From: Pelosinus propionicus DSM 13327
GTDB taxonomy: Bacteria > Bacillota > Negativicutes > DSM-13327
Assembly: GCF_900114615.1 (NCBI RefSeq)
Contig: NZ_FOTS01000005.1
Span: forward strand, 1-64,000
Direction of reading: 5' to 3'
Length of the DNA stretch: 64,000 nt
Of the stretch, positions 7,369 through 48,020 are shown in pieces. Under the pieces are notes generated by a model. That model saw only the letters and a list, made by a program, of their open reading frames with translations, had not been told where the DNA came from and did no database searches. The stretch's first letter is position 1. Every line of letters starts with the position of its first letter. Made by a program: the position numbers and the translations under genes.

Positions 7369-7389
7369 TTAAATAGAAGGATGGATACT

Positions 7390-9513: not shown

Positions 9514-9580
9514 ATTTTATAACAGGGGGACGGCAAAAACTGTAATTGATTGATATAACTACAGAGCCGATATAAAAGTT

Positions 9581-10750: not shown

Positions 10751-10764
10751 AAGAGGCAGAATTA

Positions 10765-11937
10765 ATGAGAAATGGGCAAAGGAAAATTTGTGTAGTTACA
10801 GGAACTCGGGCAGAATACGGTCTGTTGTATCAATTAATGAAGAATATTATAATGGACGACCAATTACAGTTGCAGTTGGTCGTTACGGGGATGCATCTTT
10901 CTCCAGAATTTGGGCTGACATATAGAGAGATTGAAGCAGACGGCTTTACAATTGATGCAAAAGTAGAAATGTTATTGTCGAGTGACACTCCTGTAGGTAT
11001 TGCAAAGTCCATAGGGATGGGAGTCATTGGCTTTGCAGATGTACTTGATAGGCTGCAGCCTGACATTATAGTAGTATTAGGCGATCGCTACGAAATATTA
11101 GCAGCGGTGCAAGCTGCCTTGGTAGCTAGAATACCCATTGCACACATTGCTGGAGGAGATACAACGGAGGGGGCTTTTGATGAAGCCATCCGTCATAGTA
11201 TTACAAAAATGTCACATTTACATTTCGTAACAAATGAAATTTCGGCTAAAAGGGTCAAACAAATGGGTGAAGACCCAGAGCATATATATTGTGTTGGTAG
11301 TCCTAGTATTGATCAAATAAAAAGTCTACAACTATTTACAAAAGAAGAATTGGAAAAAGAACTGAATTTTAAATTTAAGTCTCGAAATATTTTAGTAACA
11401 TTTCACCCCGTTACCCTTGACCACCAGCATCCCGTGGAGCAGTTTCAGGAGATATTGGATGGTTTTGATTTCTTTGGCGAGGAGTTAGGAATTATATTTA
11501 CTAAACCAAACTCTGATACGTATGGTCGAACTTTAATCCAAATGATTGATGAATATGTTAGAAAACACCCTCGACATACATGTGCATATACCAATCTAGG
11601 ACAAAAACGCTACTTTAGTGTTATTGCACAAGTGGATGCTGTATTAGGTAATTCATCTAGCGGGATATATGAAGTTCCGTCTTTTAAAAAAGTAACCATA
11701 AATATAGGAGACAGACAGAAAGGACGTATTCTGGTCTCATCGGTAATAAATTGCTTGCCGCAAAGACAGGCGATCATTGATGCTATTGAACTCTCGTTTA
11801 CATTAGAATGTTCCGATGTTGTGAATCCATACGGTGATGGAACAAGTTCACAAAAAATCGTATCTATATTAAAAAATGATTTTGATAGAAATGAAGTAGT
11901 AAAAAAACATTTCTTTGAGGTGGATTGCTCAAAATGA
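10765..11937 (+). CDS. legG: LegG/NeuC-type hydrolysing NDP-sugar 2-epimerase
   Basis: Releases the nucleotide and inverts C2 to give the free 6-deoxy-mannosamine precursor for the nonulosonic acid synthase. The family signature is present from the N-terminus: VVTGTRAEYGLLYQL, then VVTGMHLSPEFGLTY, VVLGDRYEILAAVQAAL, HIAGGDTTEGAFDEAIRHSI and, near the end, GNSSSGIYEVPSF. The ATG at 10765 is used because GAAAGAGG lies about 8 bases upstream. An upstream ATG at 10747 overlaps legC. The stop codon overlaps the legI start (ATGA). Confidence 0.92.
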   Translation: MRNGQRKICVVTGTRAEYGLLYQLMKNIIMDDQLQLQLVVTGMHLSPEFGLTYREIEADGFTIDAKVEMLLSSDTPVGIAKSIGMGVIGFADVLDRLQPDIIVVLGDRYEILAAVQAALVARIPIAHIAGGDTTEGAFDEAIRHSITKMSHLHFVTNEISAKRVKQMGEDPEHIYCVGSPSIDQIKSLQLFTKEELEKELNFKFKSRNILVTFHPVTLDHQHPVEQFQEILDGFDFFGEELGIIFTKPNSDTYGRTLIQMIDEYVRKHPRHTCAYTNLGQKRYFSVIAQVDAVLGNSSSGIYEVPSFKKVTINIGDRQKGRILVSSVINCLPQRQAIIDAIELSFTLECSDVVNPYGDGTSSQKIVSILKNDFDRNEVVKKHFFEVDCSK

Positions 11938-13016
11938 ATCAAAACCAGAAGACTTATATTATAGCTGAGGCTGGGGTTAATCATAATGGTTCGTTGGAAC
12001 TGGCGATGCAGCTGGTTGATGTTGCAGCTGAATGTGGAGCTGATGCAGTAAAATTTCAGACATTCCAGGCGGAGAATTTAGTTGCAAAAGATGCTATAAA
12101 AGCAGATTACCAGAAGCGAACCACTGATAGGGAAGAATCTCAATTTGAAATGATTAAAAAATTGGAATTAGATGAAAGGGCTCATCATGAGTTAGCTCGG
12201 CATTGTGGTGTGCGAGGCATACAATTTTTATCTACTCCCTTCGATTTAGATAGTTTAGAATTATTAATGAATTTTGATATGCCATATATCAAAATTCCAT
12301 CAGGTGAAATTACCAATGGTCCGTTTTTACTAGAGATTGCTCGTACCAATAAACCTGTTATTCTATCCACGGGTATGAGTACATTAGGTGAGATTGAAAT
12401 GGCCTTAGGAGTATTAGCTTTTGGATACCTTGAAAGATGGGAATGTGCTAGTATTGAAGCTTTTCAAGAGGCTTATTCGTCAATAGAGGGACGCCAATTA
12501 TTGCAGCAAAAGGTAAGCCTAATGCATTGCACTACTGAGTACCCAGCTCCGTTTTCAGACGTGAATTTAAGAACGATAGATACTTTGAGGAGTGCTTTTA
12601 ATTTATCAATTGGTTTTTCCGATCATACGCCAGGTATTTCCGTTCCAATTGCGGCAGTGGCTCGAGGCGCGCTGCTTATTGAAAAACATTTTACATTAGA
12701 TTGTAACCTTCCTGGACCAGATCATAAGGCTTCTTTAGAACCAGTTCAATTAAAAGAAATGATTAAGGCAATACGGCAGATTGAGGAGGCGCTGGGCCAC
12801 TCCTTTAAGATTCCAGCACTTTCGGAGGTTAAAAATAAGGCTGTGGCTCGTAAAAGTTTGATCGCAAATCATATAATCCAAAAAGGTGAAAAATTCACGG
12901 TAGAGAATCTAACAGCAAAACGTCCTGGAATTGGACTTTCGCCAATGAATTATTGGGATTTATTGGGGAAGAATGCTAAACGAAAATATGAAATGGGTGA
13001 AAAGGTAGAATTATGA
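11934..13016 (+). CDS. legI: LegI/NeuB-type N,N'-diacetyllegionaminate synthase
   Basis: Condenses the free hexosamine with phosphoenolpyruvate to form the nine-carbon acid. It has the NeuB TIM-barrel motifs: IAEAGVNHNGSLELAMQLVD, GADAVKFQTFQAENLV, FLSTPFDLDSLELL, KIPSGEITNGPFL, SIGFSDHTPGI and EKHFTLDCNLPGPDHKASL. The C-terminal antifreeze-like SAF domain (about residues 295-360) contains ARKSLIANHIIQKGEKFT. The start at 11934 is chosen because of GAGGTGG about 10 bases upstream and the ATGA overlap with legG. It differs clearly from the second synthase at 40973, which is PseI-like. Confidence 0.93.
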   Translation: MNQNQKTYIIAEAGVNHNGSLELAMQLVDVAAECGADAVKFQTFQAENLVAKDAIKADYQKRTTDREESQFEMIKKLELDERAHHELARHCGVRGIQFLSTPFDLDSLELLMNFDMPYIKIPSGEITNGPFLLEIARTNKPVILSTGMSTLGEIEMALGVLAFGYLERWECASIEAFQEAYSSIEGRQLLQQKVSLMHCTTEYPAPFSDVNLRTIDTLRSAFNLSIGFSDHTPGISVPIAAVARGALLIEKHFTLDCNLPGPDHKASLEPVQLKEMIKAIRQIEEALGHSFKIPALSEVKNKAVARKSLIANHIIQKGEKFTVENLTAKRPGIGLSPMNYWDLLGKNAKRKYEMGEKVEL

Positions 13017-13645
13017 TACACCCCGTTATTGTGGTTGGTGCTGGAGGGCATGCAAAAGTAATAATTGATATGTTATTAGCATCCTCTGTTGAAATCATTG
13101 GCGCTACGGACTCTGATCTTCAAAAAAAAGGCAATCGGGTGTTAGGGATACCTATAATTGGTGACGATGAAGTTATCTTGCAATATAATCAGGAGAAGAT
13201 ATTTCTGGTTAATGGTATAGGCTCAATCGGATTACCAGTAGTTCGAACTCAAATTTTTCATCACTTTAAGCAGCTAGGTTATTCATTTCAAACGATAATC
13301 CACCCTTCTGCTATTCTGTCTTTGGAAGTTACAGTTGGAGAAGGCAGTCAGATTATGGCAGGAGCGATTATCCAGCCAGGGTGTCAAATTGGTGCAAATT
13401 CCATAATCAATACGGCAGCTACTGTGGATCATGATTGCGTAATTGGTTCTAATGTCCATTTGTCTCCTGGAACCACCCTTTCTGGTGGTGTTGGAATTGG
13501 AGATGGAGTGCATATTGGAACTGGTGCTGTTATTATTCAAGGAATTCAAATTGGCAAAGATAGCGTTGTAGGGGCAGGAGCAGTTGTCGTTAAAAATGTG
13601 GTAGAAAATACGAAAGTAATGGGTGTGCCAGCGCGGGAGGTATGA
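13013..13645 (+). CDS. legH: LegH/NeuD/PglD-type sugar O/N-acetyltransferase
   Basis: Acetylates the 4-amino group made by LegC, using acetyl-CoA. An N-terminal Rossmann-like sugar-binding part (VVGAGGHAKVIIDML) is followed by a left-handed beta-helix of hexapeptide repeats from about residue 95 (VTVGEGSQIMAGAIIQPGC). The catalytic histidine lies in NTAATVDHDCVIGSNVHLSP. The 210-residue length is normal for NeuD/PglD. The ATG overlaps the legI stop. The following maf gene starts a few bases from its stop, completing a tight leg-maf operon. Confidence 0.88.
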   Translation: MIHPVIVVGAGGHAKVIIDMLLASSVEIIGATDSDLQKKGNRVLGIPIIGDDEVILQYNQEKIFLVNGIGSIGLPVVRTQIFHHFKQLGYSFQTIIHPSAILSLEVTVGEGSQIMAGAIIQPGCQIGANSIINTAATVDHDCVIGSNVHLSPGTTLSGGVGIGDGVHIGTGAVIIQGIQIGKDSVVGAGAVVVKNVVENTKVMGVPAREV

Positions 13646-13647
13646 TC

Positions 13648-16537
<2,890 letters not shown>

Positions 16538-17701
16538 GTGAAATATATTCCATATGGTAGACAAGATATTAATCAGGCTGATATTGAAGCTGTAATTCAG
16601 GTTTTGCAGTCAGATTGGATAACCCAAGGACCCGCTATTGAGCAATTTGAAAGAAAAATAGCGGAGTATTGTGGTGCGAAATATGCCGTAGCGGTGAATA
16701 GTGCAACTTCCGCTTTACATATTGCATGCATGTCGGCTGGTCTTGGACCGGAAGATATATTGTGGACGTCACCAAATACCTTTGTTGCATCTGCTAATTG
16801 TGGCCGTTACTGCGGCGCAGCAGTTGATTTTGTAGATATTGATTTTCGTACCTATAATATGAGTGTTGAAAAATTAAAAGAGAAATTAATTAATGCTAAG
16901 ATAGAGGGGAAACTTCCTAAGGTAGTTGTCCCCGTACATTTCTCAGGGCAGTCTTGTGAAATGGATACGATTTTAATGCTTGCTAAAGAATATGGTTTTA
17001 CTGTTATTGAGGATGCTTCTCATGCTGTTGGCGGTAGTTATAAAGAGCAGAAAGTTGGCTCTTGTGTATATTCTGATATGACAGTTTTTAGCTTTCATCC
17101 CGTGAAAATAGTTACTACTGCCGAAGGTGGCATGGTGCTGACGAATAAGCGGGAACTTTATGAAAAACTTATCCGATTTCGCAGCCATGGCATTACTAGG
17201 GATCCTGAGTTGATGATCGGAGAGATTCATGGTCCTTGGTATTATCAGCAGATTGATTTGGGGTTTAATTATCGAATGACTGATATACAGGCAGCTTTAG
17301 GACTTAGCCAGATGGAACGATTGGATCAATTTGTGACGAAACGACATGCAGTAGCTGAGAAGTATAATAAGGAGCTACAAAATTTGCCAGTCGTATTACC
17401 ATGGCAACACCCAAATACATACTCAGCATACCATTTATATGTAATCTGCTTAGAGGAAAATAAAATAGTAAAAACTCATAAGCAGATATTTGAAGAACTG
17501 CGTGAAGCTGGAATAGGGGTAAATCTACATTATATTCCTGTGCATACGCAGCCTTATTATCGTCAATTGGGTTTTGAGTGGGGGGATTTCCCTGTTAGTG
17601 AATATTATTATTCGACAGCAATTAGTATTCCTATATATTCGGCGATGACGGATGCAGATCAAGATTACGTTATTAAAACTCTTAAAGAGGTTTTAGCATG
17701 A
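16538..17701 (+). CDS. pseC: PseC-type aminotransferase (UDP-4-amino-4,6-dideoxy-AltNAc forming)
   Basis: PLP-dependent transaminase that acts on the PseB product. The DegT fold is clear, with the lysine at about K190 in FSFHPVKIVTTAEGG and with IEDASHAVGGSYKEQKVGSC. YGRQDINQADIEAV at the N-terminus and NLHYIPVHTQPYYRQLGF near the C-terminus are PseC hallmarks. The GTG start directly abuts the pseB stop and is supported by GCAGGAG 9 bases upstream. The next gene starts in its stop codon (ATGA). Confidence 0.94.
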   Translation: MKYIPYGRQDINQADIEAVIQVLQSDWITQGPAIEQFERKIAEYCGAKYAVAVNSATSALHIACMSAGLGPEDILWTSPNTFVASANCGRYCGAAVDFVDIDFRTYNMSVEKLKEKLINAKIEGKLPKVVVPVHFSGQSCEMDTILMLAKEYGFTVIEDASHAVGGSYKEQKVGSCVYSDMTVFSFHPVKIVTTAEGGMVLTNKRELYEKLIRFRSHGITRDPELMIGEIHGPWYYQQIDLGFNYRMTDIQAALGLSQMERLDQFVTKRHAVAEKYNKELQNLPVVLPWQHPNTYSAYHLYVICLEENKIVKTHKQIFEELREAGIGVNLHYIPVHTQPYYRQLGFEWGDFPVSEYYYSTAISIPIYSAMTDADQDYVIKTLKEVLA

Positions 17702-18426
17702 AAATAGTAATTATCATACAAGCAAGAATGACGTCAACGCGTCTTCCAGGAAAAGTACTAAAAACTGTATTAGGTAAGCCATTACTGGAATACCAAATTG
17801 AGCGTCTTAGACGTATAAAATCAGCAGATGAGATTGTCATTGCTACTACTACCAATGATACGGATCAACCAATTGTCGATTTTTGTAATAGGCTTGAGTT
17901 ATCTCATTTTCGTGGGTCAGAAGAAGATGTACTGGCAAGGTACCATGGAGCTGCGGAAAAATACAATGTTGATGTTGTAGTAAGAATTACTTCGGACTGT
18001 CCTCTGATTGATCCCACAGTGTGTGAAAAAGCAATTAATTATTTTATAGAAAATCAGGACAAATATGATTATGTAAGGCTTGAACAATACCCCCGTGGGT
18101 TAGATGCCGAAGTGTTTTCTTTTAAAGTGTTAGACGAATGTTTTAGAGACGCTACGGACAAACCTGATAGGGAGCATGTCACTCCTTTTATTTATAGAAA
18201 TCCCGAACGGTATCGAGTAAAGTGTATAAACTGTGAAAAGGACTATAGTCATCATAGGTGGACAGTCGATGCTCCAGAAGATTTTGAACTGGTTAGACGG
18301 ATTATTGAAGGTCTGTATCCTGTTAAGAAAATGTTTGATTTTGTCGATGTATTAGATGTATTTGAAAAAAATCCCGATTGGTATTATATAAATGAAAAAG
18401 TACGGCAAAAGAAGTATGGAGAATAA
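17698..18426 (+). CDS. SpsF/PseF-like CMP-sugar cytidylyltransferase
   Basis: Member of the SpsF branch of the cytidylyltransferase superfamily, which in many pse operons supplies CMP activation. The nucleotide-binding loop IIQARMTSTRLPGKVLK lies at the N-terminus, followed by RITSDCPLIDP and HHRWTVDAPEDFELV. At 242 residues it has no extra PseG domain fused to it. Its start overlaps the pseC stop. Activation of pseudaminic acid is inferred from context; the spore-coat SpsF proteins show that other sugars are possible. A 137-base gap and a change to more A/T-rich sequence follow. Confidence 0.78.
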   Translation: MKIVIIIQARMTSTRLPGKVLKTVLGKPLLEYQIERLRRIKSADEIVIATTTNDTDQPIVDFCNRLELSHFRGSEEDVLARYHGAAEKYNVDVVVRITSDCPLIDPTVCEKAINYFIENQDKYDYVRLEQYPRGLDAEVFSFKVLDECFRDATDKPDREHVTPFIYRNPERYRVKCINCEKDYSHHRWTVDAPEDFELVRRIIEGLYPVKKMFDFVDVLDVFEKNPDWYYINEKVRQKKYGE

Positions 18427-19849: not shown

Positions 19850-20545
19850 ATGAAAATTGCTATTATGCAACCATATTTTTTCCCTTACATCGGATATTTT
19901 CAGTTAATAAATGCTGTAGATGTATTTATTATTTATGATAATATTCAATATACGAAAAAAGGATGGATTAGTAGAAATCGTTTTTTGCAAAATGGAAAGG
20001 ATTCTTTGTTTTCCATTTCTCTAAAAAAGGATTCTGATTTTCTAGATGTGAGAGATCGGGTTATCGCGACTGAATTTAATAAGCAGAAGCTATTTAATCA
20101 AATAGTACAGGCATATAAAAAAGCGCCGTATTTTATGCAATTCATTCCTCTCTTTGAGAAGATATTGTTTAATGATGAAACTAATTTGTTTAAATTTATT
20201 TATTTCTCTATTCGAGAGATATGCAATATCCTCGAAATCAATACAGAAATTATAATCTCCTCTAATGTGGCGATAGATCATTCATTAAAGTCTCAAGAGA
20301 AGGTAATAGCTATTTGTAAAGAAAATGGTGCGGGCGTTTATGTAAATCCAATTGGTGGGCTAGAACTTTATTCAAAGGAATCATTCAGAGAGCATGGGAT
20401 AGATTTAAGATTTATTAAATCTAAATTGATTGAATACGAGCAATTTAATAATGTATTTTTTCCGTGGCTTTCGATTATTGATGTGATGATGTTTAACTCA
20501 AAAGAAGAAATAAAAGGGTATTTAGATTGTTATGATTTAATTTAA
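19850..20545 (+). CDS. WbqC family protein
   Basis: WbqC-like proteins occur in O-antigen and glycan clusters. Their reaction is not firmly established, although links to amide or acyl decoration of sugars are suspected. The family hallmark is the N-terminal IAIMQPYFFPYIGYFQLINA, followed by VDVFIIYDNIQYTKKGWISR and NRFLQNG. Near the end, YVNPIGGLELYSKESF and FFPWLSIIDVMMFN also fit. The ATG at 19850 is preceded by GGGAGGAAAC. An in-frame ATG at 19826 has no ribosome-binding site. 179 A/T-rich bases without a recognisable gene follow. Confidence 0.82.
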   Translation: MKIAIMQPYFFPYIGYFQLINAVDVFIIYDNIQYTKKGWISRNRFLQNGKDSLFSISLKKDSDFLDVRDRVIATEFNKQKLFNQIVQAYKKAPYFMQFIPLFEKILFNDETNLFKFIYFSIREICNILEINTEIIISSNVAIDHSLKSQEKVIAICKENGAGVYVNPIGGLELYSKESFREHGIDLRFIKSKLIEYEQFNNVFFPWLSIIDVMMFNSKEEIKGYLDCYDLI

Positions 20546-20724
20546 TATCCTCTAATGAATAGTACAATATATAAGAGAAATTTGATGAAAAAATGCAGAT
20601 AGCACCTTCTGCTTTAGTTTGATAAATAATTCGAATTGATGAATTATTTGTTTTTGATTAAAAAACCAAGTGCCTACAAGCTTGAAATTTAAAATGATTA
20701 ATGATATTTTAGGGGAAATGAAAA

Positions 20725-21468
20725 ATGAATACAAAAAGAAACTACAATAAGGAAATAGAAGATACTACAGATCATAAATATGCCTATAGTTTTGATTTGG
20801 ACGTGATGCATGGTTACATGATTAAATCATTTGAACCTTTTCTTAGAAAAGGAAATCTTCTTGAACTTGGGAGTTTCAAAGGCGATTTTACAAAAAGATT
20901 GTTACCTTATTTTGATGATATTACTTGCGTTGAGGCCTCAGATGAGGCTATTGAAATCGCCCAGGGAAAAATTGGGACCAAAGTTATCTTTATACATTCA
21001 CTTTTCGAGACGGTTACTCTTACAAATAAATACGATAACATTATATTAACTCACGTATTAGAACATCTTGATGATCCAGTTGCCCTCCTTAAACGAATAA
21101 ATGATGAATGGTTAGCTGATGATGGCAGATTATTCTTGGTCTGCCCAAATGCAAATGCTCCTTCAAGGCAAATAGCTGTAAAAATGGGTTTAATCACGCA
21201 TAACTCTGCTGTAACCCAAGCCGAAGTAGACCATGGGCATAGAATTACTTATACCTTCGATACTTTGGAAAGAGATGCCAAGCAAGCTGGTTTAAATGTG
21301 GTTCATCGCTCAGGCGTTTTTTTTAAAGCATTGGCGAATTTCCAATGGGATAGGTTGTTGGAAACTGATATTATTTCTCCGGAATATCTAGATGGGTGTT
21401 ATCAACTAGGACAGCAATATCCTGACTTATGCTCCAGTATTTTTCTTTTATGTAAAAAGAGAATATAA
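20725..21468 (+). CDS. Class I SAM-dependent methyltransferase
   Basis: 247-residue methyltransferase. Motif I is GNLLELGSFKGDFTKRLLP (about residues 47-65), the acidic loop is ITCVEASDEAIEIAQ, and motif IV/V is YDNIILTHVLEHLDDPVALL. Closest in style to UbiG/Coq3-type methyltransferases of glycan clusters, so sugar O- or N-methylation is likely. It is related to the protein at 21631, and a damaged copy of a similar gene lies at 26763-26928. GGGGAAATG precedes the ATG. Confidence 0.83.
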   Translation: MNTKRNYNKEIEDTTDHKYAYSFDLDVMHGYMIKSFEPFLRKGNLLELGSFKGDFTKRLLPYFDDITCVEASDEAIEIAQGKIGTKVIFIHSLFETVTLTNKYDNIILTHVLEHLDDPVALLKRINDEWLADDGRLFLVCPNANAPSRQIAVKMGLITHNSAVTQAEVDHGHRITYTFDTLERDAKQAGLNVVHRSGVFFKALANFQWDRLLETDIISPEYLDGCYQLGQQYPDLCSSIFLLCKKRI

Positions 21469-21469
21469 A

Positions 21470-21634
21470 TACTTTAATAGAGGGTTTATACCTGCTTTTC
21501 GCTCAAGGCTCAATGCACCAAAGCATGATTGGGAAAATACAATGAGATTCTTGAAAAATAAAGGTTTGAGATTTTTTAATTCCTGCAAAAAGAAGGATGC
21601 GATAGAAAATGTTGAAAGGTTCGAACTAATATGA
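21470..21634 (+). pseudogene. Possible gene remnant in the gap between two methyltransferase genes
   Basis: A plus-strand frame stays open for about 54 codons and ends in a TGA that overlaps the next ATG (ATGA). That is the coupling style of intact genes in this island. The peptide is rich in basic and aromatic residues (RGFIPAFRSRLNAPKHDW) and has no start codon with a ribosome-binding site. It may be the 3' scar of a deleted gene, or chance. Confidence 0.28.
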
Positions 21635-22353
21635 AAAATGAATTAGATGAACATGTTATAGCATATGAAGGTAAAACGATCTACGATTTTGATAATGAAA
21701 TTTTGCTAAATTGGTATCCAAGAAGAATTATTGAGCTTACCAAAGAGACGGACTCAATTTTGGAATTGGGTCTTGGGCATGGATTTACAGCTCATATTTT
21801 TTCGAAAATTTATAAAAAATATTGTGTTTTAGAAGGATCTCCTGCTGTTATAAAAAATTTTAGGAAAAATTTTTCCAATTGTGAACTTCAAATTATTGAA
21901 ACATATTTCGAGTCTTTTAAAAGTAATGAGAAATTTGATGTTATTGTAATGGGATTTATTTTAGAACATGTAGAAAATCCTGTTCGAATATTGAATCATT
22001 TTAAACAATTTTTATCTCCTAATGGGAAAATATTTATAGCTGTTCCCAATGCAGAAGCGATGAATAGACGATTAGGAAGGTACGCGGGGTTTTTAGCTGA
22101 TATGCAGGAATTATCGCAAAATGATCTTGATCTAGGTCATAAAAGATTTTATACAGTTGATAGCTTGAAAAAAGAGATGAAGGATACAGGTTTCTCAATA
22201 GAAAGAATTGAAGGAATCTATCTAAAGCCTTTTACAACTTCTCAAATTCTATCTTTGAATTTGGATAAGAAAGTTATTGAAGGACTGTGTGAAATGGGTA
22301 TTAATTATCCAGAATTATCTTGTGGGATTCTAGCTGAAGGGAAAATAAAATGA
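21631..22353 (+). CDS. Class I SAM-dependent methyltransferase
   Basis: 240-residue methyltransferase with motif I SILELGLGHGFTAHIFSK, then EGSPAVIKNFRKNF, VIVMGFILEHVENPVRILNH and a post-core IFIAVPNAEAMNRRLGRY. It resembles the neighbour encoded at 20725, including the LEH(L/V) and PNA.A motifs, and probably methylates another position of the same or a related sugar. Its stop overlaps the next gene's start (ATGA), tying it to the epimerase/ATP-grasp/phosphoesterase group that follows. No convincing Shine-Dalgarno precedes the ATG. Confidence 0.83.
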   Translation: MKNELDEHVIAYEGKTIYDFDNEILLNWYPRRIIELTKETDSILELGLGHGFTAHIFSKIYKKYCVLEGSPAVIKNFRKNFSNCELQIIETYFESFKSNEKFDVIVMGFILEHVENPVRILNHFKQFLSPNGKIFIAVPNAEAMNRRLGRYAGFLADMQELSQNDLDLGHKRFYTVDSLKKEMKDTGFSIERIEGIYLKPFTTSQILSLNLDKKVIEGLCEMGINYPELSCGILAEGKIK

Positions 22354-23201
22354 AAACAATTGCAGTAGTCGGAGGGACATCTTCACTAGCAAAATATTTA
22401 ATACCAGCTTTATCTAAGAAAAATGCAGTTATTTCTTTAGGGCGAAAAGATTGTGATTTATATTGTGATTTGCAAGATGATTTAGAATCAATGGTTATAC
22501 CTGCTGATACTGATGTTGTTGTTCATATTGCTGCGGCTTTTAATGGTAAGACGGATGAGGAAATTATTAAAACAGAAGAAATAAACGCTATTGGAACATT
22601 GAAAATTTGTATGGCTGCAAAAAAAGCTAATGTAAAGCATCTAATTTTAATTTCTTCCCAATCTGTAGTTTTGAGTGAAGAGTCTTTATATTATAGTATC
22701 TATAGTATAGCAAAACGCCATGCAGAGGAATTAGCTACGTATTATTGTCGGTTGAATCATTTACCTTTAGCTATTTTAAGGCCATCTCAAATATATGATG
22801 ACAAAGGTCATTTTAGGAAACACCAGCCTTTGATATTCTTGATGGCTGATCATGCTGAAAAAGGTAGTAACATAGAGATCTATGGAAGAAATGATGCATT
22901 ACGTAATTATATTCATGTAGAAGATTTTGTGGAAATTATACTTCGTACAATAGATAAGAATTGTGAAGGTATATATTCTTGTAATTATCCTAAAGATGTT
23001 ACATTAAGCGAAATAGCAAAAACTGCACAATTAAGTTTTAATAATGGTGGAGATATTGTTTTTCTTCATGACAAGCCCAATATTCCTGATAATATTTTTG
23101 ATAATCAAATAGAATTATATGAGAAAATCGATTTTTATCCACAAATTGATATTGCAACTGGAATGGAAAGAATTGTTGAGTATCGAAAGAGTAGGGTATG
23201 A
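22350..23201 (+). CDS. NAD-dependent sugar epimerase/dehydratase (SDR)
   Basis: Extended SDR protein of 283 residues. The N-terminus is IAVVGGTSSLAKYLIPAL, a slightly degenerate glycine motif. SSQSV and YSIYSIAKRHAEELA supply the Ser and the YxxxK-type catalytic pair, and RPSQIYDDKG follows. The substrate is unknown. Start and stop overlap both neighbours. It is directly followed by an ATP-grasp gene; the same two activities occur fused in the protein at 37234, suggesting a shared pathway. Confidence 0.78.
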   Translation: MKTIAVVGGTSSLAKYLIPALSKKNAVISLGRKDCDLYCDLQDDLESMVIPADTDVVVHIAAAFNGKTDEEIIKTEEINAIGTLKICMAAKKANVKHLILISSQSVVLSEESLYYSIYSIAKRHAEELATYYCRLNHLPLAILRPSQIYDDKGHFRKHQPLIFLMADHAEKGSNIEIYGRNDALRNYIHVEDFVEIILRTIDKNCEGIYSCNYPKDVTLSEIAKTAQLSFNNGGDIVFLHDKPNIPDNIFDNQIELYEKIDFYPQIDIATGMERIVEYRKSRV

Positions 23202-24175
23202 TGAAAAATATTCTTGTAAGTGGTGCTAGTGGTATTGTCGGTTATGGTATTTTAAAATCTTTACGACAAGGTGTGGAAAAATTTAATCTGATCGGAACTA
23301 CGATTTATTCTGATTCTATTGCACTGGCTTTTTGTAATATTTTTGAACAAGCACCCATGACCAATGATCCTGGTTACATTGATTGGTTATGTCATATTAT
23401 AAAAAAACATAATGTGGATATGATTATTCCCGGGATTGAAGCAGATATGTATAAATGGCGAGACAATAAAGAATTTATTGAAAGATCAGGAACTAAGATT
23501 CTGTTGAATAATATTGAGCTTATTGATGTATGTAAAGATAAATGGCTCTTTTATGAGGAATTGAAAAAAAACCACTCTTTACTAGCGATAGAATCAAGAA
23601 TTGAGGGTGATTTTTCTAATTTTAAAAATGATTTTGGATTACCTTTTTTATTGAAGCCAAGACGAGGTTTTGCATCAAAGGGTATTGTAAAAGTTGATTC
23701 GAAGGATATTTTTGATTTACATAAAGAAAACTTAGGTGTTGTTTTAATGGCGCAGCCAATAGTCGGTAGTAATGAAGATGAATATACAACTTCAGCATTT
23801 TTTGATAATAAGAGTGTTTTGCATTCCTATATGACATTGAGAAGAAAATTATCTAATGAGGGTTTTACTGAGAAAGCTCAAGTCACTAATCTTGCAGGAA
23901 TTGAAGAAGCGATCAAGGAATTGGCGCTCATTTTCAAACCTATTGGCCCTACAAATTTCCAATTTAGAGTAGACAACAATAAATTAAAGTTACTTGAAAT
24001 TAACCCAAGGATTTCTTCGGCGACTTCAATAAGAGCAGCTTTTGGCTATAATGAATCTAAGATGAGTGTCGAATATTTCTTAAATGATAAAGTGCCTGAT
24101 CAGCCGGTTATCAAATCAGGTGTAGCTATTAGGTATATAGAGGAGCATATCGTTTATGATAGGGATAATTTCTGA
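23198..24175 (+). CDS. ATP-grasp ligase (carbamoyl-phosphate-synthase-like)
   Basis: 325-residue protein with a pre-ATP-grasp Rossmann part (ILVSGASGIVGYGILKSL, then VDMIIPGIEADMY) and an ATP-grasp core. In the core, FLLKPRRGFASKGIVKV binds ATP, and KLKLLEINPRISSATSIRAA carries the metal ligands. Such enzymes join a carboxylate to an amine, thiol or sugar amino group. Here it could put an amino-acid-like or acyl group on a sugar; that is inference. It overlaps the upstream epimerase and the downstream phosphoesterase genes by a few codons. Confidence 0.8.
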   Translation: MMKNILVSGASGIVGYGILKSLRQGVEKFNLIGTTIYSDSIALAFCNIFEQAPMTNDPGYIDWLCHIIKKHNVDMIIPGIEADMYKWRDNKEFIERSGTKILLNNIELIDVCKDKWLFYEELKKNHSLLAIESRIEGDFSNFKNDFGLPFLLKPRRGFASKGIVKVDSKDIFDLHKENLGVVLMAQPIVGSNEDEYTTSAFFDNKSVLHSYMTLRRKLSNEGFTEKAQVTNLAGIEEAIKELALIFKPIGPTNFQFRVDNNKLKLLEINPRISSATSIRAAFGYNESKMSVEYFLNDKVPDQPVIKSGVAIRYIEEHIVYDRDNF

Positions 24176-24830
24176 TATTCATGGTAATTATACTGCTTTG
24201 CTGGAAGTCTTGAATTCGTTGGATGCAATGGGGATTAAAGATATTTATTGCTTAGGTGATGTTGTTGGATATTATTCGCAAATAAATGAATGTTGTGTTG
24301 AATTGAGAAAAAGAGATATTAAATGTATTATGGGTAATCATGACTGGTATATGGTAGCTAAAAGTTTTTGCCCAAGGTCAAATAGTGTTAATGATTGTAT
24401 GAAGTATCAACGAACGGTAATTGCAAAAGAAAATTTTGATTGGCTTTCTTCTTTGCCAATCTTTCGTAACATTCAAGGAATATCAATGGTCCATGGTGGT
24501 TGGTGTGACCCTATTGATGAATATTTAGACCCGCAAGAAGAATATTTTGCTAGGATTACTGGCAAATATTTTATGTCTGGCCATACTCATATACAAGCAA
24601 TAAGAAAATTTGGTGATAAAATTTATTGTAATCCAGGATCTGTTGGACAACCTAGGGATAATAATCCAGAATCTGCGTTTGCGACATTTGATGGGGAAAA
24701 TTTTTTCCTTCATCGGGTTAAGTATGATGTTGATCAGGTTGGAAAGCTGATGGATAAGGCAGGGTTTAGCGGATATTATTATGGATGTTTAAAAACTGGT
24801 TCTAGGAATTTGCAGTGGGCGGAGGAATAA
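24156..24830 (+). CDS. Calcineurin-like metallophosphoesterase
   Basis: 224-residue phosphoesterase of the YfcE/MJ0936 type. Metal-binding motifs appear in order: IGIISDIHGNYTAL (DxH), YCLGDVVGYY (GD), IMGNHDWYM (GNHD), MVHGGW, and FMSGHTHIQAI (GHTH). CNPGSVGQPRD near the end is also typical. No signal peptide, so it acts in the cytoplasm, perhaps on a phosphosugar or nucleotide-sugar intermediate. It overlaps the ATP-grasp gene by 20 bases and lies 1 base before the first glycosidase-fold gene. Confidence 0.85.
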   Translation: MIGIISDIHGNYTALLEVLNSLDAMGIKDIYCLGDVVGYYSQINECCVELRKRDIKCIMGNHDWYMVAKSFCPRSNSVNDCMKYQRTVIAKENFDWLSSLPIFRNIQGISMVHGGWCDPIDEYLDPQEEYFARITGKYFMSGHTHIQAIRKFGDKIYCNPGSVGQPRDNNPESAFATFDGENFFLHRVKYDVDQVGKLMDKAGFSGYYYGCLKTGSRNLQWAEE

Positions 24831-24831
24831 A

Positions 24832-25800
24832 ATGTTTAGGTGGGAAAAAAAGGGAGTAATTTTTAATCCTATTGAAATTGAGGATAGACCTCAATGGATG
24901 TTTGAATATGCTCAAGCCCCTTGTGTATTGAAATTCGCTGATTTTATACGAGTATATTTTAGTTGTCGGCCTACAAGAGATTGCAATGGACAATGTGTAA
25001 GTTATTCTGCTTATGTTGATTTAGATAGAAAAGACTTATTTAAAATAGTAAATTTAGCCCAAAAGCCTATTTTGGAACTTGGCGAAAGAGGCTGTTTTGA
25101 TGAATTTGGTATTTATCCCATATCTGTAATTCGAGATGGGGATGATGTTAGGGCTTACTATACAGGTCATACAAGGTGTGAAAGTGTTCCTTTTGATACA
25201 GCAATAGGTTTAGCAATTAGTAAGGATTATGGACAAATTTTTGAAAGAGTTGGGCGTGGTCCAGTATTGTCATCTTCTTTAGATGAGCCATTTGTACTGA
25301 GTGGCCCTAAAATTAGAAAATTTAATGAAATGTATTATCTGTTTTACATAACGGGTAAAAAATGGATTGAAGCAAATGGAAGAAAAGAAGTAGTATATAA
25401 AATTCGAATGGCAATATCCAAGGATGGTATTAGCTGGAATAAACTAAATAAAAATATTATTGAAGAAAAATGGGGCGATCATGAAGTTCAAGCCAGTCCT
25501 GATGTATTTTTTAATAATGGCAAATATCATATGTTCTTTTGTTATATGCTTACTCCAGATTTCCGCTATGATAAACAAAAAAGTTATCGTATAGGTTATG
25601 CTTCATCAGTTGATTTAATTAATTGGGAAAGAGATGATTCGAAAGCAGGCATTGATGTTTCGCAAGCTGGTTTTGATAATGAAATGATTGCATATCCTCA
25701 TGTATTTGAACTTGACGGAAAAATTTATATGTTGTATTTAGGTAATGAGGTAGGGAGATATGGGTTTGCTCTTGCAGAACTTAGAGGAGAATTAGATTAA
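24832..25800 (+). CDS. Five-bladed propeller glycosidase-like protein, copy 1 (GH43/GH130-like)
   Basis: 322-residue protein with the repeated blade pattern of GH43/GH62/GH130-type proteins: FIRVYFSCRPTRD, VRAYYTGHT, TAIGLAISKDYGQIFERVG and NGKYHMFFCYM. It has no signal peptide, so hydrolysis of external polysaccharide is unlikely. A cytoplasmic phosphorylase, transglycosidase or sugar-binding role is more plausible. A tandem paralogue follows with an overlapping stop/start (TAATG). Both have a RDD motif near the C-terminus (NWERDDSKAGIDVSQAGFD) and the ending YGFALAEL. Confidence 0.72.
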   Translation: MFRWEKKGVIFNPIEIEDRPQWMFEYAQAPCVLKFADFIRVYFSCRPTRDCNGQCVSYSAYVDLDRKDLFKIVNLAQKPILELGERGCFDEFGIYPISVIRDGDDVRAYYTGHTRCESVPFDTAIGLAISKDYGQIFERVGRGPVLSSSLDEPFVLSGPKIRKFNEMYYLFYITGKKWIEANGRKEVVYKIRMAISKDGISWNKLNKNIIEEKWGDHEVQASPDVFFNNGKYHMFFCYMLTPDFRYDKQKSYRIGYASSVDLINWERDDSKAGIDVSQAGFDNEMIAYPHVFELDGKIYMLYLGNEVGRYGFALAELRGELD

Positions 25801-26753
25801 TGAAATGGCGGAAAATGGGGCAGATCTTTAGTTTTGAAGATTTTAATTTTAGAAAAGAATTTGTTAGTCACTCTCAATCACCTCAGGCGGTAGTTTTTGA
25901 TGATTATGTTCGAATTTATTTTTCAACAAGGCAAAAGAGTGAAAATGGGAAATTTTTAAGTAAAGTACAGTTTATAGATTTTGATAAATCTTTTACGAAA
26001 ATTATAAACCAATCCACTAAAGAGGTTATCAAACTGGGTGAATTAGGAACATTTAATGAACATGGTATTTTCCCTTTTAACCCTGTTAAATATAAAAATA
26101 AAATTTGTGCATATACTACGGGCTGGACCAGAAGATCTTCTGTTGATGTCGATTCAGGCATAGGACTTGCTATAAGCCATGATGGCGGAGAATCTTTTGA
26201 AAAAATGGGTGACGGCCCTGTTTTGTCTACTTCATTGAATGAACCTTTTTTGGTTTGTGATGGTTTTGTCAGAGTTTTTAACGATATGTTTCATATGTGG
26301 TACATTTATGGTACCGAGTGGAAGGTTTTTGAGCAAAATCAAGAGCCAGAGAGGACATATGTTATAGGTCACGCAACATCTGTTGATGGGATTAATTGGG
26401 TTAAAGAAGGTCGACAAATTATAGAGTCTAAGTATGATGGCGAGTGCCAAGCATTACCATCAATTATACAAATTGGTAGTAGATATCATATGTATTTTTG
26501 TTGTCGAAATTCTTATGATTTTAGAAAGAATCCCCAAAATTCATACAGGCTTGGATACGCATATTCTGATGACTTAATAAATTGGATTAGGGACGATGAA
26601 AATGTAGGTATTGAAGTTTCAAAGACTGGTTGGGATTCAGAAATGATGTGTTACCCGCATATTTTTGAAATGGATAATGAAATTTATATGCTATACAATG
26701 GAAATGAATTTGGGAGATATGGTTTTGGTTTAGCAAAACTAGAAGAAATATGA
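25800..26753 (+). CDS. Five-bladed propeller glycosidase-like protein, copy 2 (GH43/GH130-like)
   Basis: 317-residue tandem paralogue of the preceding protein. Matching blocks occur in the same order: DDYVRIYFSTRQKSENGKF, GTFNEHGIFPFNPV, GIGLAISHDGGESFEKMGDG, RYHMYFCCRNSYDFRKN, and INWIRDDENVGIEVSKTGWD. The retained acidic positions and tryptophans suggest that both copies are active, possibly as a heterodimer or on two sugars. The ATG overlaps the upstream TAA. A degraded methyltransferase remnant follows immediately. Confidence 0.72.
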   Translation: MKWRKMGQIFSFEDFNFRKEFVSHSQSPQAVVFDDYVRIYFSTRQKSENGKFLSKVQFIDFDKSFTKIINQSTKEVIKLGELGTFNEHGIFPFNPVKYKNKICAYTTGWTRRSSVDVDSGIGLAISHDGGESFEKMGDGPVLSTSLNEPFLVCDGFVRVFNDMFHMWYIYGTEWKVFEQNQEPERTYVIGHATSVDGINWVKEGRQIIESKYDGECQALPSIIQIGSRYHMYFCCRNSYDFRKNPQNSYRLGYAYSDDLINWIRDDENVGIEVSKTGWDSEMMCYPHIFEMDNEIYMLYNGNEFGRYGFGLAKLEEI

Positions 26754-26762
26754 AGATGAATC

Positions 26763-26928
26763 ATGCAAAAAAATTATAAACAAGAGATAGAAGATCAAAC
26801 ATCATATCGTCAGAAGGGATTGAGATCCTTGCATAATATTGCAATCTTATCTTGATTTACTGTCTGAGCTTTCTGATGACCCTGTAAGGGTTTTAAAAGG
26901 TAGAATTAATGATGAGTTGGTTATCTGA
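26763..26928 (+). pseudogene. Remnant of a methyltransferase gene (internal deletion and frameshift)
   Basis: The first 14 or so codons, MQKNYKQEIEDQTSY, match the start of the intact methyltransferase at 20725 (RNYNKEIEDTTDHKY). After a TGA at 26853 and in another frame, LSDDPVRVLKGRINDEL matches the intact protein's LDDPVALLKRINDEW. About 90 intervening codons, including SAM-binding motif I, are gone. This is a clear scar of gene loss or recombination. Confidence 0.75.
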
Positions 26929-26954
26929 TAAATTTAATATGAGGAGAAACTACT

Positions 26955-28085
26955 ATGACTCAACATAAAGCATTTGAACAACCCATATATGTAACGCGAC
27001 CATTGTTACCTAATTTATCAGAAATTCATGTCAAGTTGGAAGAAGTATGGCAGTCGCAATGGTTGACTAATATAGGAAAGCAACATAAGCAACTGGAAAA
27101 GAGAACTACTGAAGTTTTAAAAGTGCCATATTTATCACTGTTTAATAACGGAACAATAGGACTTATAACGGCTTGCCAAAGTCTGCGTTTACAAGGAGAA
27201 GTGATTACTACTCCGTTTACTTTTGCAGCAACGCCACATGTTTTAATGTGGAATAATATTAAACCAATTTTTTGTGATATTGATCCAATTACTATGAATA
27301 TCGATGCTGATAAGATAGAGTCTATGATTACGCCACAAACCACGGGGATTCTACCAGTACATGTATTTGGAACTCCTTGCGATGTTGAAAAAATTCAGGA
27401 AGTCGCTGACCGATATGGACTGAAAATAGTATATGATGCGGCACATGCCTTTGGTGTGGAAATCAATGGTGTCGGTATTGGAAATTTTGGGGATATTTCT
27501 ATGATGAGCTTTCATGCAACGAAACTTTTTCATACAGTTGAAGGGGGAGCTTTGACTTATAGGGATAAGCACCTAAAAGACAGGATTGATTTATTGAAAA
27601 ATTTTGGCATAAAGGGCCAGGAAGAAGTGGTCATGCCTGGGATTAATGGGAAAATGAATGAAATACAGGCGGCTATAGGGCTTGTAGTCCTCAATTATAT
27701 CGAAGAAGAAAGAAGAAAACGAGCTATTTTAATTGACACCTATCGAAGGTGCCTTATGGATGTAGAGGGGATTAGCTTTTTATCTGATATTGCTGGTGTG
27801 AAAAGCAATAGTCAGTACTTTGTAATGAGAATCAGTGAAAAAATATTTGGTCGCTCACGTAATTATGTCTATGATGAATTTATGAAATATAATGTATTTA
27901 CTAGAAAATATTTTTATCCATTATGTAGCGAGTATACATGTTATCGTCATTTGCCATCATCTTCTATGGTTAATTTGCCTGTTGCACATAAGGTAGTGCA
28001 AGAAGTTTTGTCTATGCCTTTATATGGAGAACTTACAGTGAATGAAGTTGAAAAAATTTGTGATATTTTAAAGTCATTTCAATAG
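26955..28085 (+). CDS. DegT/DnrJ/EryC1 family sugar aminotransferase
   Basis: 376-residue PLP-dependent aminotransferase or dehydratase. The lysine is at about K190 in MSFHATKLFHTVEGGAL, preceded by IVYDAAHAFGVEINGV. PFTFAATPHVLMWNNIKP is the usual substrate-pocket segment. It differs from LegC and PseC elsewhere in the island, so a third amino sugar (for example a VioA/FdtB-type product) is implied. GAGGAGAAAC precedes the ATG. It is separated from its neighbours by over 100 bases on the 3' side. Confidence 0.87.
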   Translation: MTQHKAFEQPIYVTRPLLPNLSEIHVKLEEVWQSQWLTNIGKQHKQLEKRTTEVLKVPYLSLFNNGTIGLITACQSLRLQGEVITTPFTFAATPHVLMWNNIKPIFCDIDPITMNIDADKIESMITPQTTGILPVHVFGTPCDVEKIQEVADRYGLKIVYDAAHAFGVEINGVGIGNFGDISMMSFHATKLFHTVEGGALTYRDKHLKDRIDLLKNFGIKGQEEVVMPGINGKMNEIQAAIGLVVLNYIEEERRKRAILIDTYRRCLMDVEGISFLSDIAGVKSNSQYFVMRISEKIFGRSRNYVYDEFMKYNVFTRKYFYPLCSEYTCYRHLPSSSMVNLPVAHKVVQEVLSMPLYGELTVNEVEKICDILKSFQ

Positions 28086-28196: not shown

Positions 28197-29363
28197 ATGA
28201 TGAAAGTAAGTGTAGTAGTGCCAACGTATAATCATGAAAAGTATATTGCAGTATGCTTAGATAGTATTTTGTGCCAAAATACTAATTTTGATTATGAAAT
28301 TTTAATCGGTGAAGATGATTCTTCTGATGGTACAAGAGATATTGTGAAAAAGTATGTACGAGATTATCCATCGAAAATAAAAGCCTTTTATACTGATAGG
28401 AAGCATGTTAGTTATTTTGCTGGGCATCCAAATGGCGGTGATAACTTTATAAATTTACTGAAAAATGCATCAGGAGAATATATATCTTTGTGTGATGGGG
28501 ACGATTATTGGACAAATAATTCAAAATTACAACAGCAAGTGGATTTCTTGGATAAAAACTCTGACTTTTCGATTTGCTTTCATAATGCAATTCGAACAGA
28601 TGGAACTGAACATGTGTTATATTCACAGATAGAAGACATACTTAAAAGTGGTAAAGCGTTTTTTGAATTAGAGGATTTATTAAAAAGTAACTTTATACCC
28701 ACAGCTTCTGTTGTATTTCGCAATAAGTTAATTGGGGAGTTACCTGATTGGTATTTTAAGTTTGCATTTGGTGATTGGTCGTTACATATTTTGAACGCAA
28801 TGCATGGAAAGATAAAGTATATTGATGAACCTATGTCAGTTTATCGGATACATAATTCATCGTCATGGTCAAGTAAGAATCTGGAATATAGATATAAATC
28901 TATGATGGATTTCCAGTTCTTTATAAATCGTTTTTTTGATTTTGCATATGATGATGTTATTAAAGAAAGTATTATTAAGAATAACGTTTATTTTATAAAA
29001 GAATTTGAAGCTTTACGTAGGGCATTCGAAGCTCCAAAAGATTTTCTTGAGCTGCTAAAAAAAATAAGTAAAAAAAAAATAGTGGTGTTTGGCATCGGAA
29101 GTTGCGGTCAGAAAATACATCGACTCCTTCCAGTACAAGTGAGTTATTTCTCAGATAATGATTCGCTCAAGTGGGGGCAAACGGTTTCTGGGATTGTGAT
29201 CAAAGATCCATTAGAAATTGCTAAGGAAAAAAAAGATGAGTTAGCCATTTTGATATGCAGCACCTATTGTACGGAAATAGCTGAGCAATTGACGGAAATG
29301 GGATTTGAAGAAAATGAACATTATTGGAATTTATATTCAACACATAAGTGGTTATTCGAATAA
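28197..29363 (+). CDS. Family 2 glycosyltransferase with C-terminal Rossmann-like domain
   Basis: 388-residue protein. The N-terminal GT-A domain (about 1-250) shows VSVVVPTYNHEKYIAVCLDS, then GEDDSSDGTRDIVKKY and the metal-binding SLCDGDDYWT. Residues about 293-388 form the island's recurrent Rossmann-like module (KIVVFGIGSCGQKIHRLL, then YFSDNDSLKWGQ, and ILICSTYCTEIAEQL). No membrane segments, so it acts in the cytoplasm. AAAGAGAGGTG precedes tandem ATGs. Confidence 0.85.
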   Translation: MMKVSVVVPTYNHEKYIAVCLDSILCQNTNFDYEILIGEDDSSDGTRDIVKKYVRDYPSKIKAFYTDRKHVSYFAGHPNGGDNFINLLKNASGEYISLCDGDDYWTNNSKLQQQVDFLDKNSDFSICFHNAIRTDGTEHVLYSQIEDILKSGKAFFELEDLLKSNFIPTASVVFRNKLIGELPDWYFKFAFGDWSLHILNAMHGKIKYIDEPMSVYRIHNSSSWSSKNLEYRYKSMMDFQFFINRFFDFAYDDVIKESIIKNNVYFIKEFEALRRAFEAPKDFLELLKKISKKKIVVFGIGSCGQKIHRLLPVQVSYFSDNDSLKWGQTVSGIVIKDPLEIAKEKKDELAILICSTYCTEIAEQLTEMGFEENEHYWNLYSTHKWLFE

Positions 29364-36665: not shown

Positions 36666-37247
36666 ATGAAGAGTTATAAATGCCTAAAGTTTGACCGATA
36701 TGTTTCGGAGAATTATACATTGCTACCTGTTCGTGAGCAGGACATTATGCTGATTAAGGACTGGCGTAATTCGCAGCTAGACGTTCTTCGCCAAAAGTAC
36801 ATTTTGACAGAGGAAATGCAGCGCGGCTATTTCGAAACAGTAGTTTGGCCTTCTTTTGAATTGGAACAGCCGCAGCAGCTTTTATTCAGTTTCCTTAAGC
36901 AGGATGTTTGCATCGGTTATGGCGGGATCGTTCATATTAGTTGGGAAGATCGGCGAGGAGAAGTCTCCTTTTTGCTGAATTCAGAACGTGTGTCAGCTTC
37001 TAATGTGTACCATCAAGATTTTCTATCATTTTTAAACTTGATTAAACAAGTAGCTTACGAAGGGCTTAGTTTTAATCGTCTGTTTACTGAAACATTTGAT
37101 ATTAGACCATTTCATATTTCAATTTTAGAAGAAGCGGGTTTTCTTTGCGAGGGTCGTATGAAGCAGCATGTCTACTTGAATGACGCCTTTGTTGATTCGG
37201 TACTTCATGGGCATATAAGGGGGTATGATAATAGTGTGGACAAATAA
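36666..37247 (+). CDS. GNAT-family acetyltransferase (PseH candidate)
   Basis: 193-residue GNAT-like protein: LLPVREQDIMLIKDWRNSQ at the N-terminus is the typical start of PseH/RimJ-type sugar or protein acetyltransferases. CIGYGGIVHISWEDRRGEVS forms the beta-strand core, and HISILEEAGFLCEGRMKQH is the usual C-terminal signature. It is the only free-standing GNAT in the island, so it could be the PseH step of pseudaminic acid synthesis, which is otherwise unassigned. It sits 19 kb from pseBC, so this is inference. The ATG at 36666 follows GGGAGAA. Confidence 0.68.
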   Translation: MKSYKCLKFDRYVSENYTLLPVREQDIMLIKDWRNSQLDVLRQKYILTEEMQRGYFETVVWPSFELEQPQQLLFSFLKQDVCIGYGGIVHISWEDRRGEVSFLLNSERVSASNVYHQDFLSFLNLIKQVAYEGLSFNRLFTETFDIRPFHISILEEAGFLCEGRMKQHVYLNDAFVDSVLHGHIRGYDNSVDK

Positions 37248-42022: not shown

Positions 42023-42083
42023 AGTTAAACTTGTAGTAAGTATATTGTTTAAATGCCTAATTATGGAGATAGGAGTTTTATAA

Positions 42084-43268: not shown

Positions 43269-43330
43269 ATATTTACATTTTTAATACAGATAAAATGAAG
43301 TGATTTGTGGGTGACAGGAGAGGTAAGAGG

Positions 43331-47130: not shown

Positions 47131-47167
47131 TATAAAGAAATTAAGGATGTACGCAGGAGGATTATAT

Positions 47168-47941: not shown

Positions 47942-47968
47942 ATTAAGAAAAGTATAATGTATACATAG

Positions 47969-47998: not shown

Positions 47999-48020
47999 GT
48001 TATATTTCAATAAAAAAGTA

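Follow-up and report, generated by a model that had tools for sequence, protein, structure and literature searches.

The window analyzed here is a stretch of 64,000 nucleotides from Pelosinus propionicus DSM 13327, in which positions 19850–28085 carry, on the forward strand, a run of genes in the order WbqC-MT1-MT2-SDR-ATP-grasp-phosphoesterase-GH-A-GH-B-AT. The first gene encodes a WbqC protein (PF08889; 19850..20545, likely starting at the ATG at 19850 and not at 19826), which we propose to be an amino-acid:amino-sugar ligase with a class I aminoacyl-tRNA synthetase (aaRS)-like fold. It is followed by genes for MT1 (20725..21468), a class I SAM methyltransferase belonging to the core, and MT2 (21631..22353; Methyltransf_23), a diverged MT1 paralogue with 26% identity. 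The SDR (22350..23201; Epimerase, NAD epimerase/dehydratase type), the ATP-grasp ligase (23198..24175; PylC-like_N/ATPgrasp_Ter, PRK12767-type), which is a proposed amide-forming cap ligase, and the metallophosphoesterase (24156..24830; Metallophos_2) come next. GH-A (24832..25800) and GH-B (25800..26753) are both GH32/130/43-like, and the run closes with AT (26955..28085), a DegT/DnrJ/EryC1 aminotransferase that is DesI/VioA-like and a proposed dTDP-4-amino-4,6-dideoxyhexose synthase. A family 2 glycosyltransferase (28197..29363, same strand) is a possible partner outside the core; a related protein adjoins the cassette in a minority of loci.

An earlier note on this DNA had described the six genes from MT2 to GH-B as a cassette joined by start/stop overlaps. 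An ORF check found all six at the positions it gave, and their Pfam families agree. Four junctions do overlap (MT2/SDR and SDR/ATP-grasp by 4 nt, ATP-grasp/phosphoesterase by 20 nt, and GH-A/GH-B by 1 nt), but the phosphoesterase and GH-A genes are separated by a 1-nt gap. The GC content is 0.30–0.34 over 18–34 kb and about 0.385 upstream of it, which suggests that the low-GC stretch is a separate insert. Genes for flagellin, FliD, FliS, two MptE-like proteins, and Pse and Leg functions lie near the cassette. The SDR and ATP-grasp domain pair also occurs as one fused protein at 37225–39144.

A scan of approximately 85,000 species for GH-A relatives gave 251 encoding stretches, and the core AT-WbqC-GH-A-GH-B-GNAT-MT1 recurs in 85 loci. 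GH-A is present in all 85, GH-B in 83, WbqC in 81, MT1 in 79 (mostly 69–79% identical to the window MT1), and AT and GNAT in 71 each; about five loci have GNAT-MT1 fusions. Thus the most conserved companions in other loci are WbqC, MT1, and AT, which flank the six genes in the window, whereas MT2 has distant matches (29%) in only two of the 85 loci and is essentially specific to the window. The conserved unit is therefore AT-WbqC-GH-A-GH-B-MT1 plus one cap enzyme and not the six genes, and the claim that these form a self-contained set, which leaves out WbqC, MT1, and AT and includes the local MT2, was rejected. The cassette occurs in many unrelated bacteria and has probably spread among them horizontally. 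In other genomes, it was also found within polysaccharide loci.

GH-A and GH-B are paralogues with 46–47% identity, and neither sequence has an evident membrane segment or, in agreement with the earlier note, an evident signal peptide. The GH-A model (pLDDT 95.6) is a complete five-bladed propeller; its top structural match is BT_0996 (PDB 5mt2; Z 29.0 over 290 residues, 18% identity), and GH130 structures match with Z of about 28 and about 15% identity. Against PF04041 (GH130; gathering cut-off 26), GH-A scored 24.9 bits and GH-B 31.1 bits; against PF04616 (GH43), GH-A scored 21.9 bits, under the cut-off of 32.2, and GH-B was not listed. The Asp of the EDPR motif (D109 in 7fip), which we take to be the GH130 proton donor, is kept in all 84 GH-B sequences (D154 in the window) but is replaced by Gly (79/86) or Ser (7/86) in GH-A, and GH-A was therefore not filed as a GH130 member. 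Many charged and aromatic residues are invariant across phyla in both proteins, including Arg residues. We also weighed whether the propellers play a glutaminyl-cyclase-like role and found no support for this. A 324-aa protein encoded beside WbqC in E. coli A25 was checked as a GH-A relative and is not one. Relatives of the pair are currently annotated as "glycosylase" or "hypothetical protein," and we found no biochemistry on the pair in the literature searched.

The window WbqC is a clear family member (235.8 bits against a Pfam cut-off of 21.3), and the literature searched held no functional paper on, or chemistry assigned to, this family. Sequence searches turned up no relative with a solved structure, and Foldseek gave no match at E ≤ 0.001. 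The WbqC model (pLDDT 94.8; plasmid-derived rows were left out of the structure-model alignments) nevertheless aligned with the class I lysyl-tRNA synthetase (LysRS) 1irx over 176 residues (Z 11.8, rmsd 2.7), followed by other class I aaRSs and HUP enzymes with Z of about 7 and below. The predicted structure thus resembles a Rossmann/HUP catalytic fold of the class I aaRS kind. The HIGH-like site reads P-Y-I-G-Y, in which Y-x-G-Y is invariant, and no clear KMSKS motif was seen. For AT, the best solved relative is 2po3, and it scored 297.8 bits with the DesI model TIGR04427 (cut-off 650) and 213 bits with PseC (cut-off 423.5). The E. coli O121 cluster carries rfbB-rfbA-AT-WbqC-GNAT consecutively; its AT is 60–63% identical to cassette ATs, its WbqC 38–41% identical to cassette WbqCs (38% to the window copy), and its GNAT homologous to cassette GNATs (30–34%). 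The window AT has just 43–46% identity to the ATs of E. coli O121 and A25 (43% to that of O121), so its sugar could be another isomer. An RmlB above the cut-off is encoded on another contig of the genome.

Using 63 GNAT-length queries (E < 1e-3), we detected no GNAT in the window and no cassette GNAT in the five loci with the ATP-grasp ligase or in six loci with a formyltransferase. The latter enzyme is confined to its six loci among the 85 and is PurN-like (137–148 bits, compared with 23–27 bits for sugar-N-formyltransferase). The order SDR-ATP-grasp-phosphoesterase-GH-A-GH-B is found with the same spacing in L015, L016, and L065, and ATP-grasp-phosphoesterase-GH-A in L077; these loci are from four phyla other than that of the window, indicating that the arrangement is not due to chance. 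The earlier note had asked whether its gene string occurs in other genomes, and the genes do co-occur. The SDR-ATP-grasp-phosphoesterase set is thus an optional, putative cap module that replaces GNAT. Its ligase scored 219.9 bits with NF009402 (cut-off 218), and conserved residues are common to all five cassette copies; its phosphoesterase scored 72.1 bits with Metallophos_2 and has intact catalytic metal ligands (D7, H9, D35, N61, H113, H143, and H145 conserved). When either enzyme was searched singly in plasmids, only relatives near 30% identity appeared. In L011 and L012, another ATP-grasp protein takes the place of WbqC.

Loci group by cap type in the GH-A tree, where those with the ATP-grasp ligase form a single clade, so that GNAT was replaced in few events and not in eleven. 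The GH-B tree neither backs nor rejects the grouping (p = 0.29), which weakens the statement that GH-A alone tracks the cap; moreover, the cap gene adjoins GH-A in the variants, and linkage alone could account for the pattern. MT1 rejects one history for the ATP-grasp loci (p = 0.001), indicating that the module travelled with GH-A and not with the whole cassette.

We consider it fairly probable that the cassette is a cytoplasmic route to a dTDP-linked 4-amino-6-deoxysugar bearing an amino acid and an exchangeable cap; the earlier suggestion of a cytoplasmic sugar-tailoring set is supported. Judging from its family and from O121, AT would convert dTDP-4-keto-6-deoxyglucose, supplied by RmlA and RmlB encoded elsewhere, to a dTDP-4-amino-4,6-dideoxyhexose. 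WbqC may then activate an amino acid, which would be glycine in O121, and join it to the 4-amino group of the sugar, and the cap enzyme would acylate the free amine of the aminoacyl group, a GNAT adding acetyl and a PurN-like transferase formyl. In the window, where GNAT is replaced, the SDR-ATP-grasp-phosphoesterase module may make and attach a different acyl or aminoacyl cap. MT1, together with MT2 in the window, would add methyl groups, and GH-A and GH-B would act in the cytoplasm on the capped, phosphate-linked sugar, with GH-A matched to the cap. For this pair, we tentatively prefer transfer or phosphorolysis of the GH130/GT108 type to hydrolysis of external polysaccharide. The finished sugar would go onto flagellin or a surface glycan; from the location of the genes, flagellin is a plausible candidate target of the window cassette.

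Some of these steps may be read otherwise. Instead of the N-cap, the ATP-grasp, phosphoesterase, and SDR proteins might provide a precursor of another kind, for instance a carbamoyl or phosphorylated group located on a different hydroxyl, and GNAT would then be absent through a lineage accident. The module is known from just five GH-A loci of one clade, PRK12767 proteins are a broad group with no assigned specificity, and in L065 a further acetyltransferase, of the hexapeptide type, lies between GH-B and MT1. However, the module occupies the slot beside GH-A that other variants fill with a formyltransferase or a different GNAT, none of its loci retains the cassette GNAT, and it came with GH-A, so that this reading seems somewhat unlikely. 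GH-A and GH-B could also be noncatalytic and serve to bind sugar or as a scaffold, or they could act as a hydrolase that proofreads by removing uncapped sugar. When one member of a paralogue pair is degenerate, the two often form noncatalytic, scaffold-type complexes, and the missing donor Asp of GH-A fits such a role, but the donor in every GH-B, the invariant residues of both proteins, and two viral-collection loci in which the supposedly degenerate GH-A stands without a GH-B match speak against it; we regard this, too, as a tentative possibility.

The cassette is flanked on both sides by NeuB, NeuC-type, PseB/PseC-like, and cytidylyltransferase genes, and its six genes might belong to this pseudaminic/legionaminic acid route. 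This is very unlikely, given that the cassette stands alone on Rhizobium plasmids without Pse/Leg-type genes, that AT scores higher with DesI than with PseC, and that the GC fall suggests a separate insert. The propellers resemble GH130 and GH43, which would fit an ordinary catabolic operon that breaks down mannosides or arabinan and was mistaken for a biosynthetic one, but AT, WbqC, acyltransferase, and methyltransferase neighbors in the 85 loci, as well as a GH-A under both Pfam cut-offs and lacking the donor, make this highly improbable. Returning to the capped amino-sugar route, a more specific version, in which WbqC is a tRNA-synthetase-derived amino-sugar ligase acting in a PurD/PurN-like manner with interchangeable caps and GH-A/GH-B are a new GH130-fold family of cytoplasmic nucleotide-sugar transferases, one of them cap-dedicated, that pass on the completed sugar, is speculative and rather unlikely as a whole.

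These results give the widespread WbqC family a testable job tied to a published glycan structure and reveal, over many phyla, a cytoplasmic glycosidase-fold pair that cannot degrade external polysaccharide. A constant core with an exchanged cap enzyme (acetyl, formyl, or ATP-grasp product) would be a way to diversify surface antigens and flagellin glycans. The parts are of known kinds, and their combination appears to be undescribed: the gene composition was not found in the literature searched, and the six genes fall under none of the NCBIfam equivalog pathways. The earlier note's remark that no described pathway has this composition is nevertheless too strong, given that the AT-WbqC-GNAT part corresponds to the O121 genes one by one and in the same order.

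BT_0996 is a Bacteroides glycoside hydrolase, for which we know of no biosynthetic neighbors. The viosamine and anthrose dTDP-Qui4N pathways (VioA, DesI) use the same kind of aminotransferase, with later N-acylation and O-methylation; to our knowledge, neither WbqC nor a GH pair has been described in them. PurD and PurN place glycine on an amino sugar and then formylate it, PurN acting on the glycyl amide carried on the sugar, and PurN-like and ATP-grasp proteins occur in cassette variants, but the sugar differs and WbqC is not an ATP-grasp enzyme. WbqC shares its overall fold with the catalytic domain of class I LysRS but has no detectable sequence similarity to it, an altered HIGH motif, and no tRNA-binding domains. 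Pantothenate synthetase, a HUP-fold amide ligase, also has an overall fold like that of WbqC, and MshC is another HUP-fold amide ligase. GH130 mannoside phosphorylases and the dual GT108 enzymes have a five-bladed propeller like that of GH-A, and GH-B keeps the GH130 donor Asp, whereas GH-A lacks this Asp and falls under the family cut-off, and the cassette has no mannan context. GT108, a GH130-fold glycosyltransferase-phosphorylase, is a precedent for transfer by a propeller (PMC8950772). The O-antigen of E. coli O121 contains N-acetylglycyl-Qui4N, 4-(N-acetylglycyl)amino-4,6-dideoxyglucose (PMC3210612). In this Shigella-like cluster, no GH-A/GH-B, ATP-grasp module, or methyltransferase is annotated, and AT-WbqC-GNAT sits within a larger O-antigen locus; by contrast, these three genes occur in the same order as in the cassette, each is homologous to its counterpart, and rfbB-rfbA point to the same origin from dTDP-glucose.

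The six open reading frames that the earlier note had grouped were found on the forward strand at 21,631-26,753. They encode a methyltransferase (MT2, 21,631-22,353), an SDR, an ATP-grasp protein, a metallophosphoesterase and the propeller proteins GH-A (24,832-25,800) and GH-B (25,800-26,753). Four junctions overlap by 4, 4, 20 and 1 nt, and a 1-nt gap separates the phosphoesterase from GH-A. Pfam assigned the first four proteins to Methyltransf_23, Epimerase, PylC-like_N/ATPgrasp_Ter and Metallophos_2, and GH-A and GH-B (46-47% identical) gave weak GH32/GH130/GH43 matches. Because GH-A and GH-B begin directly with MFRWEKKG and MKWRKMG, they lack a signal peptide, as had been claimed.

A tblastn search of plasmids detected GH-A genes of 64% identity in Rhizobium leguminosarum, each followed by GH-B, in the order AT-WbqC-GHA-GHB-GNAT-MT-GT (AT, aminotransferase; GNAT, N-acetyltransferase), and this order was identical in Tateyamaria. 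In two Rhizobium loci (L007 and L008), the seven genes of the cassette stand by themselves on a large plasmid, outside any polysaccharide locus. Scanning 84,980 species genomes yielded 251 GH-A relatives, of which 80 were kept. With proteins of the window and of Rhizobium as tblastn queries, 85 loci were screened; GH-A was detected in 85, GH-B in 83, WbqC in 81, the methyltransferase MT1 in 79, and AT and GNAT in 71 each, usually in the order AT-WbqC-GHA-GHB-GNAT-MT1 with intergenic gaps of tens of bases. The grouped genes other than MT2 do co-occur elsewhere, but the unit had been drawn without WbqC (19,850-20,545), MT1 (20,725-21,468) and AT (26,955-28,085), which adjoin the six genes in the window.

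Record titles place the cassette in Bacteroidota, Pseudomonadota, Bacillota, Actinomycetota, Elusimicrobiota, Verrucomicrobiota and others, and isolates carrying it include Rhizobium, Paenibacillus, Mycolicibacterium, Methylobacter and Mucilaginibacter. Many loci are metagenome bins, and single phylum assignments are not all safe, since L053 and L054 share an identical GH-A and a near-identical neighborhood in bins of different phyla, reflecting recent transfer or mis-binning. Two viral-collection contigs (L090 and L091) carry a WbqC-GHA-MT1 core without a GH-B match. The cassette was absent from all seven congeners and present in 2 of 398 phylum genomes, one of them the window's own; this rarity among near relatives and the fall in GC content (0.30-0.34 across 18-34 kb versus about 0.385 upstream) are consistent with acquisition.

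In loci without the GNAT, other acylating enzymes adjoin GH-A. Six loci encode a Formyl_trans_N protein, which was absent from all other fetched loci; the two tested scored 137-148 bits against a PurN model but 23-27 bits against a dTDP-4-amino-4,6-dideoxyglucose formyltransferase model. Five loci (the window, L015, L016, L065 and L077) encode the ATP-grasp-phosphoesterase pair, preceded in four by the SDR. The cassette GNAT was undetectable in these 11 loci with 63 GNAT-length queries, and L014 and L053/L054 have GNATs of another type instead. The raw Fisher p for this exclusivity was 5e-13, although the loci are not independent: in the GH-A trees, the ATP-grasp loci group in a single clade (support 93 and 0.96 in two trees), and the formyltransferase loci make up a separate one. 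One common history of the ATP-grasp loci was rejected by MT1 (p 0.001) but not by GH-B (p 0.29); together with the GH-A clade, these trees indicate that the ATP-grasp module travels with GH-A and separately from MT1, which may reflect functional matching or mere linkage. GNAT-MT1 fusions, present in about five loci, suggest that the cap and methylation steps are coupled. In L022, L039, L055 and L068, the two appear as a natural fusion in a single ORF of about 400 aa; L033 and L060 show the fusion by read-through.

The GH-A model is a five-bladed propeller whose top structural match was BT_0996 (Z 29.0), with GH130 enzymes at Z about 28. By HMMER alignment, D109 of 7fip, in the EDPR motif holding the GH130 proton donor, corresponds to G158 of GH-A and D154 of GH-B; this column is Gly/Ser in 86/86 GH-A and Asp in 84/84 GH-B proteins. 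Many Arg and other polar positions are invariant in both proteins. Single-copy relatives at greater distance (about 33% identity) lie beside WbqC, methyltransferase and acetyltransferase genes in L101 and L103, and beside GNAT and AT in L102. GH130 comprises phosphorylases and hydrolases, and GT108 enzymes of the same fold are glycosyltransferase-phosphorylases (PMC8950772). Given this shared fold, we favor a phosphate-linked capped sugar as the probable substrate of GH-A and GH-B, with low confidence in the exact reaction.

The WbqC model (pLDDT 94.8) matched class I lysyl-tRNA synthetase 1irx (Z 11.8, 176 residues), followed at Z about 7 by other class I synthetases and by enzymes of the HUP fold, pantothenate synthetase among them; Foldseek by itself yielded no significant match, and no sequence relative was found among solved structures. 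We infer that its invariant Y-x-G-Y occupies the HIGH position. In L011 and L012, which lack WbqC and keep GNAT, its slot holds a 399-aa ATP-grasp protein with an L-amino-acid-ligase-like C-terminal domain. The synthetase-like fold, the motif and this replacement fit, without proving, a predicted amino-acid ligase. The best solved relative of the window AT was 2po3, the 4-aminotransferase DesI, and RmlB is encoded elsewhere in the genome.

The surrounding island contains two MptE-like (PF01973) proteins (3653-5542 and 13,642-15,543), of a kind known from flagellin-glycosylating Maf factors, adjoined by genes for flagellin, FliD and FliS. The regions 6355-18,426 and 40,973-45,066 appear to encode routes to two nonulosonic acids, with PseB/PseC-like, cytidylyltransferase and Leg-type genes and two NeuB homologues. 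At 37,225-39,144, a 639-aa SDR-PylC-like/ATP-grasp fusion unites the two domains that the cassette encodes in separate genes, with only about 20% identity; a methyltransferase, a HAD phosphatase and a NeuB homologue follow. At 47,147-49,957, three similar solute-binding proteins of the amino-acid ABC type stand in tandem, with one permease and ATPase after them.

The earlier note's observation held, and so, for the most part, did its intuition of an undescribed sugar-tailoring set; its unit, pathway logic and role for the middle genes did not. The cassette parts are relatives of known families; the core, exchangeable cap and propeller pair as a whole appear undescribed, no description having been found in the literature searched. 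In E. coli O121 RM8352, rfbB-rfbA-AT-WbqC-GNAT are consecutive. N-Acetylglycyl is one of the N-acyl groups on 4-amino-4,6-dideoxyglucose, for which the O121 structure is cited (review, PMC3210612). In the simplest reading, taken from O121, AT would form the amino sugar, WbqC would add glycine and GNAT would add acetyl. The O121 AT shares 60-63% identity with the cassette ATs nearest to it and is further from the window AT (43%), and the O121 WbqC and GNAT share 38-41% and 30-34% (71 hits) identity, respectively, with their cassette counterparts.
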